Shown one piece after another: positions 3,438 to 11,216 of a stretch of DNA of 11,216 nucleotides. A program made the translations under genes and the position numbers. Source of the DNA: Planctomycetota bacterium (GTDB taxonomy: Bacteria; Planctomycetota; PUPC01; DSUN01); NCBI GenBank assembly GCA_016872875.1, contig VGYW01000276.1:1-11216 (forward strand), in the 5' to 3' direction. Position 1 is the first letter of the stretch, and every line of letters begins with the position of its first letter. The notes beneath the pieces are model-generated. The model was not told the DNA's origin. It saw only the letters and a list, made by a program, of their open reading frames with translations, and did not search any database.

Positions 3438-4328
3438 TCAGCGGCCGCGCTTGCCGCCGGTGCTGCGCTTGGCGGTGGGGGGCTTTGGGCGGCCGCCGAA
3501 GATGTCGTGGTCGTCCGCGTAGCTCGGCTTCCACTGCTTGGTGCCGCCGGAGTAGGTGCGGGCGCCGTCGTGGGTCACGGTGTTCCCGCTGCGGGTCCAG
3601 GTGTCGTCGCGGGCCACGCTCCTGCCGCCGGAGCCGGTGGAGGTGCCCTCGCGGGTCACGGTGTTGCCGTTGCGGGCGAAGGTGTCCTGGCTTGTGACGC
3701 TCTTGCCGCCGGAGGTGGTGGTCTGGCCGTCGCGGGTCACGGTGTTGCCGTCTTTCTTCCAGGTGACGTCCTGCTCGACGGTCTTCCCGCCAGGGCCGGT
3801 GACGGTGGTGTCGCGTGTGACGGTGTTGCCTTCCCTGGTGGTCGTGCCCTCGATGGTGGCGGTCTTGCCGCCGGGGCCGGTCACGGAGCCGTCGCGCGTG
3901 ATTGTGTTGCCCTCGCGGGTCCAGGTGTCCTCGCGGGTGACGGTCTTGCCGGCTGGGCCGGTGACGGCGCCGCTGGCGTTGAGGGTGGCCGGCTCGTCGG
4001 GGAGGTCGTACTCCTCGTGGAGGGCCTTGAGGCGTTCGGAGGTGCCTGGGCGCTTCTCTTCGATCTTCGAGCGGAAGCTTTCGGGGAGAGCCTGCCAGGC
4101 TTGGCGAGCCTTCGCCACGGCGGCGAGAGCGGCCTCGCGGTTGGCCGCGTCCTTGGCCGCGAAGAAGTCGGCCACGGCCTGCCGCAGCGTGGCGATCTGC
4201 CCCTGGGTCTCCTTGAGCTTCTCGGCGACCCGCTCCTTGATCTTCTCGCGCCAGGTGCCCTCGGCGTTGGCCAGTGTCGCGAGGCTCAACACAACCGTTG
4301 CGGAAGCCAGCACACTCCTCAGCCGCAT
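3438..4328 (-). CDS. Exported protein with five 27-residue Thr/Gly repeats (296 aa)
   Basis: I do not recognise a named family. The start at 4326-4328 has AAGGAG (4336-4341) 7 nt upstream. Residues 1-22 are a signal peptide (MRLR, hydrophobic core, LANA before EGTW). Residues 25-110 are helical and charged (REKIKERVAEKLKETQ and following) and probably form a coiled coil. Residues 120-254 are five back-to-back 27-residue repeats, roughly G-x-V-T-G-P-x-G-K-T-V-x6-W-x-R-E-G-N-T-V-T-R-D. A partial sixth (255-266) and a basic Pro/Lys/Arg tail follow. The alternating Thr pattern and fixed Gly turns suggest a beta-strand stack. The EF-hand gene follows after 36 bp with an identical ribosome-binding context, so the two are probably made together. 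A structural or envelope role is inferred only from export and repeats. Confidence 0.75.
   Translation of the reverse strand: MRLRSVLASATVVLSLATLANAEGTWREKIKERVAEKLKETQGQIATLRQAVADFFAAKDAANREAALAAVAKARQAWQALPESFRSKIEEKRPGTSERLKALHEEYDLPDEPATLNASGAVTGPAGKTVTREDTWTREGNTITRDGSVTGPGGKTATIEGTTTREGNTVTRDTTVTGPGGKTVEQDVTWKKDGNTVTRDGQTTTSGGKSVTSQDTFARNGNTVTREGTSTGSGGRSVARDDTWTRSGNTVTHDGARTYSGGTKQWKPSYADDHDIFGGRPKPPTAKRSTGGKRGR
3531..3971 (-). repeat. Coding tandem repeat: five 81-bp units plus a partial sixth
   Basis: The units cover 3567-3971 (5 x 81 bp, codons 120-254) and a partial unit runs to 3531 (codons 255-266). Every unit keeps GNT(V/I)T(R/H)(D/E) at its end and a Gly-Gly/Ala-Gly-Lys/Arg turn near its start, while the middle diverges. 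Length is invariant, so selection on the fold is more likely than recent slippage. Confidence 0.85.
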
Positions 4329-4335
4329 CTCTGGT

Positions 4336-4341
4336 CTCCTT
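4336..4341 (-). promoter_or_regulatory. Ribosome binding site of the repeat-protein gene (AAGGAG)
   Basis: On the minus strand AAGGAG lies 7 nt before the ATG at 4328, in the same GGAAAGGAGAC context as at the EF-hand gene. No clear -10/-35 pair was found in the 117-bp gap between this gene and the upstream glycosidase-like gene. Confidence 0.8.
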
Positions 4342-4445
4342 TCCGCTGCCTCTCACACAAGTTGTTTGTCCGACACAGGTTACGATTCTCAGCGGCTGCC
4401 CGTCACCGCCTCGACACTCGTGAGAGGAGCAATCGCCGTGCCAGT

Positions 4446-7400
4446 TCATTTCCCCTTTTCTACGACCAGGCATCCGACGTCGTTGGGCCCGAGTTCGAGG
4501 GAGATGATGGCGTGGTTGCCCTCGCGGCGGATGGCGGCGGGGCGCTCGCGCCACTCGTCGTGATATGTCGCCCCCGTCTCGTACGGCACACGCAGCACTT
4601 CGCCCCGCACGGTGCGGTGGCGGGCGTTGTAGAGGGTGTAGACGGTCTTGCCCGCGACGGGGAACTTGTTGGCCCATACGCCGCCCATCTCGGTGGGGAC
4701 AAGCGGCACGGGCTCGAGGCTCGTGAAGGCGTCCTTGTGCTTGCGCAGGACGCGGTAGCACCGGCGGATGGCCTCGCGAGTCTCCGGCTCGAACCAGTCG
4801 GGCGGGCCTTCGAGCCAGATGGCCTCGCCGTTGAAGAAGACCCACTTGACGCCGGTAGCCCAACTGCCCGTGGGCTTGTCGCACACGAGGATTTCGATGG
4901 TCTTGAAGTCGGGGAAGGCGAAGCGGGCCATGTTGATCGGCACGAGGGTCTGGGTCCGCCTCGCCTCGCTCATCGCATACGTGAAGCTGCCGTCCTGGAA
5001 CGGCGTCGTAACGTCAACGGGCGTCTCCTCGGTGTAGATTGCGACGCCCGGCCTGGCCTTCTCCACCCGCTCGCGGATGAGCTTCGTTGTCTCGCGCTCG
5101 GTGGCGGCGGGGCAACTGGGCGTGGGATGGCCGTGCTTGTCCGAATAGCAGTCCTTCCACGGGTCTGCGAAGCCGAACTGGTCAATGTACATGCCGTCCA
5201 CGCCCAGCTCTTTCACCTTCGTCTCGTAGGTCGAGGCCTGGACTTCGCACCAGGCGGGGACGCCTGGGCAGACCATCATCTCCTCGTTGCCGGGCCACCA
5301 GAGCGGCTTGCCGTCGCGGGTGATGATCTGCCAGTCCTTGCCGTGGGCCTGTCCGAGCTTGCCCCTGGCCGTGAGCAGATAGCCCTCGATGTAGAGGCCA
5401 ACCGGCACGCCCTGCTTCTGGACCCCCTCGATGGCCTTTCGCAGCGCGTCGCGTCCGCCCTTGATGTAATCGTAGGGCGAGTAGTCCCCCGTCCGCCCAT
5501 AGATTCGCCCGTAAGGCCCGCAGTTCCCCCAGTCGAAGAGGTGCAGGTAGTCAATCCCCCCGAACTCCCGCTTCGCCTCCTCCACCGCCCGTTCCAGGTG
5601 CAGCTCGCCCGTCTTCGCGTCGTAGAGCGGGTCAAGCCAGTGCAGGAACCGCTGGCGGAAGTTGAAGATTTCGCGGAACCATTGCTTCCGTGGCAAAAGG
5701 GGCTTCAGCGACTCCTTGACCGAGGCGCGATAGGCATCGAAGTCGCGACGCCAGTTGCTATCGCTCAGGCGGATCCACCTTGCCGGACCTGCTGAGCTCT
5801 CGCCGGGCCGCAGGGTGCGCGGGAAGCGGACCGCGGCCGCTGCGAACGCGGCCGCCTCATCGCGGGCCTCGGGAAAAGCGCCCTTCTCGGCCGTGCGGGC
5901 GGTGAGGGCCGCGGCGGCGAAGGCGGCTTGCCTGGAGGCGTCGCGGAGGACGACGGCCTTGAGGGGCTTGGAGGGGTCGGCGGCGGCGACGAGGACCTGG
6001 GGGCCGGGGCCGATGCCGAATTGCCTGGTGGCGGCGTTGAGCGGGAGGCATTCGTCGGCCGTGCCGTCGGCGTATTCGAGGCGCAGGCGGAAGCGGTCGA
6101 GGTCGCGGATGGAGCGGAACTTGCCGCCGCCGAAGACCGGCTCCTCGGGGCCGACGAGAGCCGCCAGCAGCAAAAGATAGACCTCGCTGGCCTTGAGGCC
6201 GCAGGGGAAGCGAAGCTCGGCTTTCGCGCGAACGCCTGTGGCGGCAAGCCCCGTAACCTCCCGAAGGTTTGGAACCTTCGGGAGGTTAAGGGAGAACGGG
6301 ATGCCGTGCATGGTGATCGTTGAATCACTGAACCAGTCGGCGAGGCGGAGGTGGCGGCGCCACTCGGCGCTGTCGCCCGTGCCCGCATCGCCGAGCGGGA
6401 TGGCGGCGAAGCCGTCGAAGCGGGCGCCCGGCTGCCAGTCAATCGAATCGGAGAGCTTGGAGGGCTGGATGGCATTGACAAAGCGGATGTCGGCTACTTC
6501 TAACGTGGCACAGCCGCCCTCGGCTGTGAAGGGGGCAGCCTGGACCTGGAGTGCGAGTGCGCCGATGGCGGGGAAGCGGGCCGCTGCCTTGCGGATATCC
6601 ACGGTAAGGGTGTGCCAGCGGCCATCGGAGACGAGCTCGGTGTCGGAGATGACGGGCGTGTAGTCGAGGCCGGCGGTGCGCGGCTTGCCGAGGACGCACA
6701 GGGCGTAGTCGCCCACGGGCCGCAGGCCCGTGCCACGATACCGCAGGGAGACATAGCGGTGCCCTTCCAGAGGGGCCGGCTCTGGCAGGTCCCACGACCA
6801 TTTCATCCCTCTCGACGGCTCGGCGACGGCGAAGCGGGTGACTTCGCCCTTGCGCTCGACGGAGTGCTTGCCATCGGGGGCGGGGTTGGAGAGCCAGGCG
6901 GTGTGGGCGGCCCACTTCGCTTCGGCGAGGGGCGCAACCCAGTCGGGCTTGGGGGACGCGGCGGGGACGCGCTGGAGCACCTGGGCGTCCTTCGGCGGGT
7001 CGGGGTGGAAGGCCAGCCAGTCGAGCCAGAGCTTCGCGTTGCCCTTCTCGGTGGCCTGCACTTGCACGGCCAGGCCGTGGACGCCATCCGCTTCGGTGAG
7101 GGTGGAGACCTCCACCGCAACGGTGTGCCACTGTCCGTCGGCGATGGTATCGCAGAGGCGGAGGGCGTGGAGCTGTCTCCCCTGCACTGCGTCGTCGAGG
7201 TAGACGAGGTAGTCTTCGCTTTGGGTGTCGAGGCTTTCGGCCCGGTAGCGGAGGGCGAGCCAGGGGGTCTCGTCGAGAGAGACGAGGGGCATTGGTGCCG
7301 ACCATTTCATCCCCTTTCGCGGCTCGTCGGCGCGGAAGCAGGCGGCCTGCCCGTCGCTCGTCACCGACGCGCTTGGCGATGGGTTGGCAAGCCAGGCGGC

Positions 7401-7577: not shown

Positions 7578-7592
7578 GAGCATTGCGCCTGT

Positions 7593-7621
7593 TTGACACC
7601 CCTTCCGGCCCACGCTATAAT
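7593..7621 (+). promoter_or_regulatory. Consensus sigma-70-type promoter, cassette 1
   Basis: TTGACA at 7593-7598 and TATAAT at 7616-7621 are perfect consensus hexamers with a 17-bp spacer. The sequence CGGCCCACGC before the -10 and CACTTTCGGAGAGCA after it are nearly the same in copy 2. Exactly 40 nt separate the -10 from the ATG, as in the other two copies. Confidence 0.85.
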
Positions 7622-7661
7622 CACTTTCGGAGAGCAACGAGTGGAGCAAGGGAGTCCGAGC

Positions 7662-7925
7662 ATGCAGAACGACGATGACGTGATAGCCGTAGAGGAGGCC
7701 CGCAGGCGCCACGCGGGCAAGTGGCTGGCCCTTAGGGTGGTCTCGCGGGATGCGAACCGTATGCCTGCCAATGTGCGCGTCGTTGCAGAGGCGGACACGC
7801 TTGAAGCCCTCTGCAAGAGGGCACGCCCCATCAACGGCCTCTACCTCACGTTCGCCGGCCCGATCGTCCCACCTGGTTGGGCATTTGTCTTCTCTTCCAC
7901 CGGCCAGCGGCCGGGGTGCAGCTAG
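7662..7925 (+). CDS. DUF5678-like small protein, cassette copy 1 (87 aa)
   Basis: The start at 7662 has AAGGGAG (7648-7654) 7 nt upstream and matches the start of its two paralogues at the same distance from the promoter. The conserved core is V-I-A-V-E-E-A, then R-H-A-G-K-W-L-A-L-x-V-V-S-R-D (residues 16-30), a variable loop, VRVVAEADTLEAL, then YLTFAGPIVPPGWAFVFSS near the C-terminus. The 'AGKWLAL' block with a following strand resembles DUF5678 as I recall it; this is not searched. No signal peptide or membrane segment is seen, so it is probably cytoplasmic. Its stop is 9 bp before the protease start, and the protease ribosome-binding site overlaps the stop, so the pair is likely translationally coupled. 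Function is unknown; adaptor, inhibitor or substrate of the protease are possibilities, none shown. Confidence 0.8.
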   Translation: MQNDDDVIAVEEARRRHAGKWLALRVVSRDANRMPANVRVVAEADTLEALCKRARPINGLYLTFAGPIVPPGWAFVFSSTGQRPGCS

Positions 7926-7934
7926 GGGTGGCGC

Positions 7935-8318
7935 ATGCAACTACCGATCCGGCCGGGCGCGCCGATCCACCTCACTGCGCGGATGTTCGGCCCGGCAGGT
8001 GAGTGCGAGTTGGATGCCGTGCTCGACACGGGTTCGCTCTTTGTCACCATTCCTCCGGAGTGCGCGCAGGAACTCGGCTACGACCCCGAGAACGCCCCGC
8101 TTACCAAGGTCGTCACTGCCGGCGGCGTCATCCATGTTCCCCAGATCACCCTCGGCCGTTTGGTGGTGTGTGAGGAGTTCGAGGCGGCCAACATACCGGC
8201 GCTCTGTCTCAATGTCTCGGCCGCAGGCACCCGGTGCTTGCTCGGGCTGGCGTTCCTCTCCCGCCTGAACTTCTCGGTGGACAACAAGGCTGGCACACTG
8301 ACTATCACAGACCCTTGA
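7935..8318 (+). CDS. Single-domain retropepsin-like aspartic protease, cassette copy 1 (127 aa)
   Basis: The start at 7935 follows AGGGGTGG (7924-7931), which overlaps the stop of the preceding gene. The layout is that of clan AA proteases, which act as dimers with one catalytic Asp from each chain. LDAVLDTGS places the catalytic Asp31 in D31-T-G-S, followed by FVTIP. TAGGVIHVP (61-69) fits the flap region, and LLGLAFLSRLNFSVD gives the second hydrophobic-hydrophobic-Gly motif at Leu102-Leu103-Gly104. The C-terminal strand is TLTITDP. About 125 residues is the usual size for free-standing prokaryotic members such as the DTGF/AF_0612-type group. There is no signal peptide and no reverse transcriptase or integrase nearby, so this is a cellular protease, not retroelement debris. 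The target is unknown; the adjacent small protein is the obvious partner. Confidence 0.85.
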   Translation: MQLPIRPGAPIHLTARMFGPAGECELDAVLDTGSLFVTIPPECAQELGYDPENAPLTKVVTAGGVIHVPQITLGRLVVCEEFEAANIPALCLNVSAAGTRCLLGLAFLSRLNFSVDNKAGTLTITDP

Positions 8319-8341
8319 CACGCGCGGGCCCCGCCCACCCC

Positions 8342-8374
8342 TGGATTCGTGGCGCAGTTCCCCTCATGAATCCA
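8342..8374. other. Stem-loop between cassettes 1 and 2
   Basis: TGGATTCGTG (8342-8351) and CATGAATCCA (8365-8374) pair at 9 of 10 positions (one G-T-type mismatch) around a 13-nt loop, 23 bp after the stop of protease 1. There is no T-run, so it is at most a weak terminator or mRNA 3' end structure. Confidence 0.35.
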
Positions 8375-8432
8375 CGCGCCTCGGTCTGACCAAGCCGGTC
8401 TTGCCCACCTCCTGGAGCGGCCATCCGGGCGT

Positions 8433-8461
8433 TTGACGCCACTTCCGGCCCACGCTATAAT
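8433..8461 (+). promoter_or_regulatory. Sigma-70-type promoter, cassette 2
   Basis: TTGACG (8433-8438), a 17-bp spacer and TATAAT (8456-8461) repeat the cassette-1 promoter with one change in the -35. The ATG is again exactly 40 nt after the -10. The promoter stays intact although the protease behind it is broken. Confidence 0.82.
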
Positions 8462-8501
8462 CACTTTCGGAGAGCAGCGAGCGGGACAAGGGAGCCTGAA
8501 G

Positions 8502-8735
8502 ATGCCCAAGACAAATGGCGTGATGACGGTGGCCCAGGCGCGCAAGCGCTACGCGGGGAACTGGATGGCGCTGGAAGTGGTCTCGCGGGACAAGAACCAG
8601 TTCCCGAAGACGGTGCGCCTCATCGCGAAGGCGCGGGATCAGCGCGAGCTTCACGAGAAGGTGCGCACGTTCGCGAATAAGTATATCGCCTTTGCAGGCC
8701 CCGTCGCGCCCAAGGGGACGGTGGCGCTGTTTTGA
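8502..8735 (+). CDS. DUF5678-like small protein, cassette copy 2, shorter C-terminus (77 aa)
   Basis: The start at 8502 follows AAGGGAG (8488-8494) by 7 nt and sits at the conserved distance from its promoter. It keeps the family core: V-M-T-V-A-Q-A, Y-A-G-N-W-M-A-L-E-V-V-S-R-D-K-N (residues 17-32) and YIAFAGPVAPKG near the end. Two differences stand out. The usual Lys in A-G-K-W is Asn, and the C-terminal P-G-W-x-F-V-x-S-S seen in copies 1 and 3 is replaced by T-V-A-L-F and a stop. It is followed after 34 bp, a wider gap than in the other copies, by the deleted protease remnant. The reading frame and promoter are intact, so it may still be made, with or without its original partner. Confidence 0.75.
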   Translation: MPKTNGVMTVAQARKRYAGNWMALEVVSRDKNQFPKTVRLIAKARDQRELHEKVRTFANKYIAFAGPVAPKGTVALF

Positions 8736-8769
8736 CGCCTGGGTTGTCCTAGACGCACCAGAGGATTGC

Positions 8770-8934
8770 ATGGAAGTCCCGATCACCGCAGGCCGTATCA
8801 TTCACGTGCCGGTCCAAGTTCTCGGACCTCTCGCTGTCAGTGAGATGGAGGCGGTCTTCGACACTGGCGCGGCCTTCGTGTTCCGCATCGTGATCGATCC
8901 CAGCAGACGGTTGCTCTCCATCACACGGCCCTGA
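8770..8934 (+). pseudogene. Retropepsin-like protease remnant with in-frame core deletion, cassette copy 2 (54 aa)
   Basis: The frame from ATG 8770 runs to TGA 8932-8934. The first 30 residues follow the paralogues (MEVPITAGRIIHVPV, then MEAVFDTGAA), keeping the catalytic D-T-G at 31-33. After FVF at 36-38 the sequence jumps directly to RIVIDPSRRLLSITRP, which corresponds to the extreme C-terminal strands of copies 1 and 3. About 73 residues (some 220 bp), with the flap and the L-L-G motif, are missing without a frameshift. A dimeric retropepsin fold is not possible from what is left, so it is almost certainly inactive as a protease. The next cassette's -35 box begins two bases after its stop codon. 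It could still be translated as a short peptide. Confidence 0.8.
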
Positions 8935-8935
8935 T

Positions 8936-8964
8936 TTGACGCCGGTTGCGGCCCACGCTATAAT
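8936..8964 (+). promoter_or_regulatory. Sigma-70-type promoter, cassette 3
   Basis: TTGACG (8936-8941), a 17-bp spacer and TATAAT (8959-8964), with GCGGCCCACGC before the -10 as in the other copies. The ATG is exactly 40 nt after the -10. The -35 starts directly after the stop of the copy-2 remnant. It is the only clear promoter ahead of the downstream sugar nucleotidyltransferase/kinase gene. Confidence 0.82.
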
Positions 8965-9004
8965 CACTCTTGGGGAGCGAGGAATGCGAAGTGGGGGCTT
9001 GACG

Positions 9005-9259
9005 ATGGGCGAGAACAACGACGTGATGACGGTTGAGCAAGCGGAGAAGCGCCACGCTGGCAAGTGGCTCGCGCTGGAGGTCGTGTCCCGAGACAAGAAC
9101 GGCTTCCCACACGAGGTGCGGTTCGTGGAGGAAGCCGATACCCAACCTGCTATCTTCGAGAAGACACGCGCTCTCAAAGATGTCTTCATTACCTTCGCTG
9201 GGCCTCTGGTCCCCCCGGGTTGGGAATTTGTCCTCTCTTCCCGCTGCTTGCCGCGGTAG
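9005..9259 (+). CDS. DUF5678-like small protein, cassette copy 3 (84 aa)
   Basis: Start 9005 is chosen over the in-frame ATG at 8984 because it keeps the 40-nt distance from the -10 found in the other two copies and aligns the N-termini. A GGGGG tract (8993-8997) 7 nt upstream is a mediocre ribosome-binding site. The core is V-M-T-V-E-Q-A, R-H-A-G-K-W-L-A-L-E-V-V-S-R-D-K-N (residues 16-32), VRFVEEAD and FITFAGPLVPPGWEFVLSS. It is closest to copy 2 at the N-terminal core (E-V-V-S-R-D-K-N) and to copy 1 at the C-terminal P-P-G-W block, which suggests either shared ancestry or recombination between copies. The protease gene begins 18 bp downstream. No export signal is seen. Confidence 0.8.
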   Translation: MGENNDVMTVEQAEKRHAGKWLALEVVSRDKNGFPHEVRFVEEADTQPAIFEKTRALKDVFITFAGPLVPPGWEFVLSSRCLPR

Positions 9260-9277
9260 GAAGCACCAGGCGGACGA

Positions 9278-9658
9278 ATGGAAATCGCCGTATCGCCCGG
9301 ATCCCCAGCGCGGCTCACTGTTCGAGTCTATGGGCCACACGGCGTCCGGGAGATTCCCGCTCTTCTCGACACGGGCGCGTCGGTATTCACGATCACCCCC
9401 GATGCCGCCATCGAGTTGGGGTATGATCTCCACCTCGCCCCGAAGGTCACAGTCGCAACCGCAAGCGGTCCCGCGGAGGCACCAAGGATATTGCTCTCCC
9501 GCGTTCAGGTGGGCGAATTCTGCTTTGAGGGTGTGCCGACCCTCTGCCTCAACGTGTCTTCACTGGGTGTTTCGCGCCTCTTGGGCATGAATATCCTTGC
9601 GCAGCTCAACGTGTTCCTGAACAACAAGACCGCGACCCTTTTGATCACCGATCCCTGA
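9278..9658 (+). CDS. Single-domain retropepsin-like aspartic protease, cassette copy 3 (126 aa)
   Basis: The start at 9278 follows AGGCGGA (about 9268-9274). It aligns with copy 1 over its whole length: LLDTGAS gives catalytic Asp31, ATASGPAEAP (60-69) fits the flap region, VPTLCLNVSSLG matches the shared IPALCLNVSAAG block, and RLLGMNILAQLNV carries the second motif at Leu101-Leu102-Gly103. It ends in TLLITDP, almost as copy 1 does. DTGA replaces DTGS, a common variation in the clan. All residues expected for an active homodimer are visible. Its stop lies 10 bp before the GlmU-like/kinase fusion gene, with no promoter seen between, so the two are probably on one transcript. Confidence 0.85.
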   Translation: MEIAVSPGSPARLTVRVYGPHGVREIPALLDTGASVFTITPDAAIELGYDLHLAPKVTVATASGPAEAPRILLSRVQVGEFCFEGVPTLCLNVSSLGVSRLLGMNILAQLNVFLNNKTATLLITDP

Positions 9659-9668
9659 GAGCCGGGGT

Positions 9669-11216
9669 ATGCAGCGCATACTGGATTCTGTCGAGCGGTT
9701 CTCCCCTGAGATACACGAGCGGGTGCTGGACCTCTGGCGCCGGGGCGTGGTGGAGATCGACCGGGAGGGGCAACGGGTCGCGCCGCGGGCCGAGCCGGGG
9801 CTGAGCGAGGAGGACCAGGCGGTTTTCGACCAGCTCGCCGCGGCGCTGGAGACGATTCGCGCCTTCCCCGAGCCGCCGGCAAGCCCCGACCCCGCTGGGC
9901 CGGTCTCCGTCATCCTCTGCGGCGGGCGCGGCACCCGCATGCGCTCGCGGGACAAGCATAAGGTCTGCTTCCCCGTGGCCGGCCGAGCCGCAATCAACCG
10001 CGCGATTGACGTCTACGGGCAGTGCGGGGTCCGCCGCCACGTCGTCGTGGTCGGCGTCCTCGGCGAACAGGTCGCCGCCGAAGTCCTCCGCGAGCACCCG
10101 CAGGGAGTCGAGTTCGTCTACCAGCTCAACCCGGTCGGCACGGGGAACGCCGCGAAGCAGGCCGCCTACCTCCTTGAACGCCAATACTACCAGGGCGAGG
10201 TGCTGGTGGTCGCGGGCGACAAGGTGATTGACCCGCGTGCCATCCGCAAGCTCATCCACGAGTTCCGGGAGCGGCACGCCGACCTGGCGGTCACGGTGTC
10301 GCCCAAGTCGCGCTGGGCGGAGAGCGGGCGCATGGTCTTCCGCCGCGACGGCTCGCTGTGCGGCACGGTGGAGGCGCGCGACATCGCCCGCGCCCGCACC
10401 CTCGCCCGCATCCTCCGCGAAAAAGCAGCGTCGCCCGAGCTGCGAAACGACTACCTCCTGCGCCTCGTCCGCGAGGCGGAGCCCCGCCCGGAGAAGGCGC
10501 GCCTCATGTTCGGCGAGCTGCTCGCACGGCTGGGATCCGAGCCAGAGACGCCCCTGCCCGCCCTCCGCTCACTCATCCGCCCGGAGCAAACCCGTTTCGC
10601 CATCGCCGAGGCCGACGGCTCACAGACCCTCCTCACCGCCGACCAGCTCGAGGAGACGGCCTCGAAGGTCAACGTGTCGGTCTACATGTTCAAGGCCCGC
10701 GCTTTCTACGAGGCCCTCCGCCGCATCAGCGCCGACAACGCCCAGAAGGAGGAATACCTCACCGACGCCGTGGGCATCCTGGCCAACGCCCGCAACCCCG
10801 ACGGCACGCTCCGCTACAAGCTCATCACGGTGGACGTTGACGACCCGAACTGGGTTCTGGCGTTCAACAACCCCGAGGAGCTGCTCGACATCGAGGACTA
10901 CCTCCGGCGCCAGGAGGCGATTGCGAAGGGCGTCGAGCTCCACGAGCCCGCCCCCCGCCCGCGCCGCACCGTCGAGGAATGGCTCCACATCCTCGACGCC
11001 GACGATCCGGCGCTGCGGCGCCGCTTCACCGAAATCTACGGCCCAGACCCCGCCCTCCACGAGGAACGCCGCCGCGCCTACCGCGAGACACTCCTCGAGT
11101 TCGCCCGCGTCTACGGCACCGACAGCCGCGTCCTCATCATCCGCTCCCCCGGGCGCGTGAACCTCATGGGCCGCCACGTGGACCACCGCGGCGGACACAA
11201 CAACCTCGTGGCCATC
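9669..11216 (+). CDS. GlmU-like sugar-1-phosphate nucleotidyltransferase fused to a galactokinase-type GHMP kinase (3' partial, 516 codons visible)
   Basis: The frame from ATG 9669 stays open to the window edge, and only a weak ribosome-binding site (GAGAG/GGGG) precedes it. Residues 1-75 are an extra N-terminal segment with no family I recognise. Residues 78-415 are a GlmU-type NTP transferase: VILCGGRGTRM (81-91) is the nucleotide-binding G-G-x-G-T-R loop, SRDKHKVCFPVAG replaces the usual S-x-x-P-K-x-L-x-P-V-x-G, VGTGNAAKQA (156-165) matches the base-binding loop, VAGDKVI (181-187) holds the metal-site Asp, and EEYLTDAVGIL (361-371) is a GlmU-like E-Y-Y-L-T-D element. Residues 492-511 (SPGRVNLMGRHVDHRGGHNN begins at 493) match the N-terminal galactokinase signature G-R-V-N-L-x-G-E-H-x-D-x-x-G-G. 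The order is that of the bifunctional FKP enzyme, but the kinase motif is galactokinase-like, not fucokinase-like. Salvage of a free sugar to a nucleotide sugar is inferred. Confidence 0.8.
   Translation, partial: MQRILDSVERFSPEIHERVLDLWRRGVVEIDREGQRVAPRAEPGLSEEDQAVFDQLAAALETIRAFPEPPASPDPAGPVSVILCGGRGTRMRSRDKHKVCFPVAGRAAINRAIDVYGQCGVRRHVVVVGVLGEQVAAEVLREHPQGVEFVYQLNPVGTGNAAKQAAYLLERQYYQGEVLVVAGDKVIDPRAIRKLIHEFRERHADLAVTVSPKSRWAESGRMVFRRDGSLCGTVEARDIARARTLARILREKAASPELRNDYLLRLVREAEPRPEKARLMFGELLARLGSEPETPLPALRSLIRPEQTRFAIAEADGSQTLLTADQLEETASKVNVSVYMFKARAFYEALRRISADNAQKEEYLTDAVGILANARNPDGTLRYKLITVDVDDPNWVLAFNNPEELLDIEDYLRRQEAIAKGVELHEPAPRPRRTVEEWLHILDADDPALRRRFTEIYGPDPALHEERRRAYRETLLEFARVYGTDSRVLIIRSPGRVNLMGRHVDHRGGHNNLVAI

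Follow-up and report, generated by a model that had tools for sequence, protein, structure and literature searches.

We observed that a Planctomycetota contig (VGYW01000276.1, assembly GCA_016872875.1), analysed over its whole length of 11,216 nucleotides and called the window here, carries three tandem units at positions 7591-9658. Each is made up of a promoter, a gene for a small DUF5678-like protein and a gene, or the remnant of a gene, for a retropepsin-like aspartic protease. The whole unit would be a two-protein module of a DUF5678-superfamily small protein and a one-domain aspartic protease. The pairing of the two is near certain to be real, and we are highly confident that they form a functional unit. 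As to how they work together, we favour the reading that the small protein binds the protease and restrains it or gates the access of substrate, as an antitoxin or inhibitor does. The protease would then be a conditional effector that is freed under stress or infection. From the sequence comparisons given below, we put the probability of restraint or gating at about 0.43.

The units are built up as follows.

7593..7621, forward strand: promoter of unit 1, TTGACA-17-TATAAT, 12 of 12 consensus positions
7662..7925, forward strand: small DUF5678-like protein copy 1, an open reading frame (ORF) of 87 aa (sub-threshold PF18929 match, 15 bits; alignment)
7935..8318, forward strand: retropepsin-like protease copy 1, 127 aa, with DTG and LLG motifs (PF13975, E 7.2e-11; alignment)
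8433..8461, forward strand: promoter of unit 2, 11 of 12 consensus positions
8502..8735, forward strand: small DUF5678-like protein copy 2, 77 aa (66 of 77 residues identical to copy 2 of the relative L001; dN/dS 0.17)
8770..8934, forward strand: protease remnant of copy 2, 54 codons (alignments; no Pfam or NCBIfam match up to E 1)
8936..8964, forward strand: promoter of unit 3, 11 of 12 consensus positions, directly past the stop codon of the copy-2 protease remnant
9005..9259, forward strand: small DUF5678-like protein copy 3, an ORF of 84 aa (alignment; AlphaFold2 model with a mean predicted local distance difference test score, pLDDT, of 81)
9278..9658, forward strand: retropepsin-like protease copy 3, 126 aa (PF13975, E 5.2e-13; TIGR02281, 59.9 bits)

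The D1 repeat family, with three 203-nt copies starting at 7591, 8431 and 8934, marks the units. The promoter scan found four promoter-like sites between 7400 and 9800, against a shuffle mean of 0.3. These were the three unit promoters, all near-perfect sigma-70-type sites with a spacing of exactly 17 nt, and one site on the opposite strand with 9 of 12 positions. The promoter and leader of units 1 and 2 are identical at 61 of 71 nt; their small proteins share only 32 of 77 residues. The gaps between small gene and protease in the window are 9 and 18 nt. An earlier note on this DNA, made from the sequence alone, had described a threefold array with an intact protease in copies 1 and 3, and this description held: all three promoters and small proteins are present, and both proteases exceed the PF13975 and PF13650 cut-offs and carry the DTG and LLG motifs.

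The hallmark of clan AA (D-T/S-G together with hydrophobic-hydrophobic-Gly) is thus found in copies 1 and 3, while copy 2 lacks it. Against TIGR02281 (cut-off 57.95 bits), copy 3 stood above the cut-off and copy 1 below it (42.4 bits). In their DTG site, second LLG motif, length of about 126 aa and PF13975 match, the window proteases resemble the single-domain, retropepsin-like members of clan AA, and the nearest solved chain by sequence was the ApRick protease (5c9d, E 1.2e-4). We infer that such a one-domain protease should act as a homodimer. No signal or membrane segment was seen by eye in the window proteases, and a first scan of genome contigs with the protease alone found no relative. 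The window type differs from ordinary single-domain clan-AA proteases by the small partner gene upstream, and the partnerless short-frame proteases of the surveyed genomes form a clade apart from it.

The earlier note had also likened the small proteins to DUF5678. By the Pfam cut-off this was not borne out, since copy 1 reached only 15 bits against a gathering cut-off of 23.2 and copies 2 and 3 gave no PF18929 match. Profile-profile comparison did support the likeness. Three profiles were used: A3, a window-type profile of 36 rows; A7, a wider window-type profile of 14 rows; and A5, made from the surveyed DUF5678 proteins. With hhalign, A7 matched A5 with a probability of 94.6 and an E value of 6.7e-8 over 42 columns, and A3 alone gave 76.7 and 2.1e-5 over 34 columns. 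Shared traits are the G-K-W/Y-x-A core, the succession of strand, helix and strand, and the position directly upstream of a clan-AA protease. The AlphaFold2 model of copy 3 has the order strand-strand-helix-strand, as does the DUF5678 part of a model of a fused protein (described below). Unlike DUF5678, the window proteins have about 8-11 extra residues inserted between strands one and two, as seen in the profile alignment, and a conserved FAGPxVPxG segment. On these sequence comparisons the window proteins belong to the wider DUF5678 superfamily, though they are not DUF5678 by the Pfam cut-off. Among themselves, copies 1 and 2 have 55% and 51% identity with copy 3, and 27 columns of the three-copy alignment are invariant. 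A search of the small-protein model against the PDB matched no solved structure, which is no proof of a new fold, and a literature search for DUF5678 or PF18929 found no account of its function. Matches of some small proteins to ThiG, Rad51 and HNH were under cut-off and were disregarded.

We then surveyed how often the two genes stand together, in samples of two phyla, Planctomycetota (392 genomes) and Elusimicrobiota (16 genomes). PF18929 matched at 35 places in 23 of the Planctomycetota genomes. A clan-AA protease lay directly downstream on the same strand in 26 of the 35, two of them fused; three of the 26 (L097, L074 and L100) hold by construction, since as L044, L048 and L066 they were among the 27 seeds of the protease hidden Markov model (HMM) built for the survey and the tree. 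No protease match was found upstream or on the other strand in those stretches. The D-T/S-G motif and a second Gly motif, searched with a loose Gly pattern, were present in 23 of the 26 downstream proteases (absent from L071, L085 and L096). Of the 24 two-gene loci, 20 have a codon that could start the protease (ATG in 13, GTG or TTG in 7) at -11 to +3 nt from the stop of the small gene. The other nine loci (L072, L075, L077, L080, L083, L084, L087, L091 and L103) had no recognisable protease, although a very divergent one could be missed.

The wider window-type profile, A7, gave 16 matches in 11 of the 392 genomes. A recognisable protease lay directly downstream in 11 of the 16, broken or altered ones (L108, L109 and L112) included, where sequence errors in metagenome-assembled genomes (MAGs) may fake some of the broken frames. 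The other five were copy 2 of L001, one contig end, two without a protease and one possible fragment. L001, the closest relative found, comes from a Planctomycetota MAG (G001) and carries units 2 and 3 only. It shares with the window the NTP-transferase/galactokinase gene downstream of the units, from which a planctomycetal origin of the window is probable. The A3 profile matched four places in this genome and none in any other of the 294 genomes searched in the same phylum. G001 also holds an unlinked pair (L006/L008), in which small gene and protease almost touch, and the same pair occurs in an Elusimicrobia MAG (L002); as the L001, L002, L008 and L012 proteases were HMM seeds, these pairs too hold by construction. 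Within Elusimicrobiota, DUF5678 matched in two of the 16 genomes, paired in G301 and broken-looking in G297. In the latter (L121), the start of DUF5678 reads in frame into what appear to be the C-terminal 30 residues of a clan-AA protease, the kind of product expected from an internal deletion.

Both domains can also stand in one ORF, as at L078 and L095 of genome G038. When a fusion of 200 aa was searched against 5.8 billion proteins, with lengths of 0.55-1.75 times the query allowed, six proteins were found, the query included, and the others were 33-81% identical over the alignment. Precomputed annotation gave both Pfam domains in four of the six. In P0046 and P0047 only the alignment revealed the N-terminal part, and a scan of P0047 found no DUF5678 match. 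Across all six, the stretch that joins the two domains has conserved Arg, Trp and Pro columns. The protease domain of the fused-protein model matched retropepsins (best E 4.8e-6). One further candidate fusion, L022, was rejected: an uninterrupted frame connects a small-protein-like stretch with the protease, but the match to the small protein is weak (2e-3) and its protease groups with the partnerless clade, so L022 was counted as unpaired.

The two families have diversified together. The distance matrices of small proteins and proteases correlated with r 0.74 over 30 pairs (among which L022 was nonetheless kept) and r 0.58 over 21 representatives, and none of 5000 permutations reached the observed correlation in either set. 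As a comparison of sequences, such a correlation indicates joint inheritance, not binding. The proposal of the earlier note that the two genes work as a unit is therefore upheld by the neighbourhood survey, the joint diversification and the natural fusions; adjacency, which would be rare if the pairing were a local accident, proved to be common. The alternative that the tandem array reflects local duplication of chance neighbours without functional linkage is ruled out for practical purposes by the 26 of 35 and 11 of 16 adjacencies, the fusions and the occurrence in two phyla.

The copy-2 protease remnant keeps the N-terminal part, the DTG and the last strand, while the middle and the second motif are missing, and we judge from its sequence that it cannot form a protease domain. 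In L001 the remnant is down to 40 codons, and the DTG is absent. The small protein of the same copy was retained. Between the window and L001, the ratio of nonsynonymous to synonymous change (dN/dS, NG86 values) has a bootstrap range of 0.08-0.37 around the value listed above, and 20 of 32 changes fall at third positions. Purifying selection thus seems to act on the copy-2 small protein, even though the protease of this copy is lost in both the window and L001. On the restraint reading, it would be a partner left alone and retained for its ability to act in trans on the proteases of the sister units. The expectation that the pair was kept together through both duplications did not survive, because copy 2 lost its protease.

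Small genes without a recognisable protease are found at nine of 35 loci and as copy 2 of the window and of L001. On the protease side, a tree was built from 51 of 55 loci, four without a domain of at least 75 aa being dropped; ten of the 48 protease-profile matches had no locus and were not included. Among the proteases fetched by the protease profile, 11 of 51 were partnered and 40 partnerless. Of the partnerless ones, 21 (open frames of 127-307 aa) form one clade with no paired row, and the remaining 19 comprise L018, L030 and L031 (178 and 183 aa) and 16 more whose frames have at least 347 aa. The six-row clade of the window proteases is entirely paired. Leaving the long-frame kinds aside, L018 is the only partnerless protease within the paired clades, and it has a degenerate active-site triplet. 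Four partnerless proteases with long frames are placed close to the window clade, a placement that is weakly supported. Loss in one direction, with the protease gone and the small gene kept, fits what would be predicted of an inhibitor or antitoxin. As a separate observation, G001 (8.9 Mb) has 21 PF13975-type protease matches, 15 of them in the partnerless clade.

The same observations have to be weighed against two other ways of working. It is conceivable, and would not greatly surprise us, that the protease depends on the small protein as an activator, as an assembly factor or as an adaptor that delivers substrates, so that the module serves regulated proteolysis and not self-poisoning. Protease and partner are sometimes one polypeptide, joined by a linker of low model confidence, all proteases of the window clade were found partnered, and no relative of the small gene was found on phages or viral contigs, which would all suit such a role. 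The bacterial retropepsin RimB likewise acts with partner proteins, according to the available text of PMC11957791. A protease-less adaptor should vanish, yet small genes stand alone at the nine loci named above, and copy 2 looks selected, although here it could serve copies 1 and 3.

Less probable is that the small protein is a substrate, signalling as a sensor or regulator when the adjoining protease cuts it. In its favour, small proteins occur without a protease, the conserved columns between the fused domains leave room for a cleavage site, and a DUF5678 domain was noticed by eye at the C-terminus of a response-regulator-like ORF of 203 residues (L083, 1039-1650 in reverse complement coordinates). 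The joint diversification and the overlapping or touching genes fit a lasting complex at least as well, and no result of this analysis speaks for cleavage itself.

We also compared the pair with defence candidates. A phage defence candidate is abbreviated PDC, and two such candidates in PADLOC (PDC-M08 and PDC-M52) already consist of a small protein and a clan-AA protease. The earlier note had supposed that such a regulated-proteolysis module would be new; in its architecture it is not entirely so. Window protease 3 matched PDC-M08B (PDLC04402) with an E value of 4.5e-4; the B model has 128 positions, and an A model, with 86, is the size of the window small proteins. When the 24 paired or fused proteases were scanned (as a scan of the paired kind alone, this implies no specificity to it) and matches were counted at E values up to 1, 12 matched one PDC-M08B model (best 2.4e-7), nine another (best 1.3e-7) and nine PDC-M52B (best 1e-6; window copy 3 did not). 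The small-protein scan gave one AbiEi match (0.047), and one PDC-M08A model reached only E 0.165 in G001.

Like the window pair, PDC-M52 has a small gene upstream of a clan-AA protease gene, and in its case the two overlap. Two loci on two cyanobacterial plasmids (L128 and L129) matched its B model with 2.2e-47 and 1.3e-44 and its A model, over about the first 29 positions, with 2.6e-8 and 5.4e-6. In both, the small gene overlaps the protease gene by 8 nt, and at L128 the pair is flanked on both sides by transposase genes. The small component differs from that of the window, being another protein of 72 aa without a DUF5678 match. On this sequence evidence, the small proteins encoded upstream of clan-AA proteases are of no fewer than two distinct kinds. 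Toxin-antitoxin pairs typically exchange partners, and the layout seen here is that of a type II toxin-antitoxin system, with a small upstream gene, touching or overlapping genes in the relatives and a conserved pair. At L006 784-2912 (contig C378 of G001), the L006/L008 pair adjoins, on one strand, a gene whose PIN domain exceeds the Pfam cut-off and a gene whose matches to ribbon-helix-helix antitoxins stay below cut-off; from these matches, the region is possibly a cluster of toxin-antitoxin-like genes. The pair may also have an anti-phage use. Single-gene PDCs, found by guilt-by-embedding, are called putative candidates in the available text of PMC12988326. Our literature search found no paper with PDC-M08, and none with PDC-M52 among the matches listed.

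Known bacterial retropepsin-like proteases in operons with partners are RimB and RloA of Pseudomonas (PMC11957791, PMC12239564). Their operon partners, as named in the available text of these two reports, are an ATP-grasp protein (RimK, RloC), a phosphodiesterase (RimA) and an inactive transglutaminase (RloB); that text names no small DUF5678-like partner of the kind seen in the window.

Several results weigh against restraint or a defence role. One-way loss would also follow if the small protein had a second role of its own, and on the protease side the argument from partnerless proteases rests on one locus, L018. The fused-protein model shows no testable interface; with a mean pLDDT of 69.8 and a linker under 50, we make no statement on one. 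Window protease 1 had no PADLOC match at E 0.01, the B-model matches counted above are mostly weak, and no small protein in the sets of 24, 14 and 8 (overlapping) that were scanned matched an A model of PDC-M08 or PDC-M52, in which the pair differs from PDC-M08. On plasmids, small-gene queries (three with protein, one with DNA) found no relative, and neither a small-gene query against phages nor a scan of viral contigs found one; in this the small genes would be unlike mobile toxin-antitoxin or defence genes. By the Pfam scan, the window neighbours do not resemble a defence island. Queries with proteases did find plasmid records for L008 (seven) and P0045 (two), and none for L012 and L097.

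A broader proposal is that the proteins of the DUF5678 superfamily serve specifically to inhibit cytosolic retropepsins as antitoxins, the pair being a proteolytic toxin-antitoxin or anti-phage system in which the partner is exchangeable (DUF5678, PDC-M52A or PDC-M08A) and the retropepsin effector common. Taken as a whole, this is in our view less likely than not. The survey ties 26 of the 35 Planctomycetota DUF5678 members to one enzyme class. If the small protein does restrain the protease, the effector of a toxin-antitoxin or defence system would here be a retropepsin. Two PADLOC candidates would then be part of a wider family, and the range of possible effectors would extend to cleavage by a virus-type protease.

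Elsewhere in the window, positions 15-1157 on the forward strand encode a protein with the middle domain of hydrazine synthase alpha (PF18582, 82.6 bits against a cut-off of 26.6) and CXXCH motifs. In an open frame at 3438-4328 on the reverse strand, GPGGKT..TREGNT-like repeats stand in tandem; no Pfam match of this frame exceeds the cut-off. Downstream of the third unit, at 9669-11216 on the forward strand, a nucleotidyltransferase is joined to part of a galactokinase (PF12804, PF10509), and the same arrangement is syntenic at 3845-6769 on the forward strand of L001.

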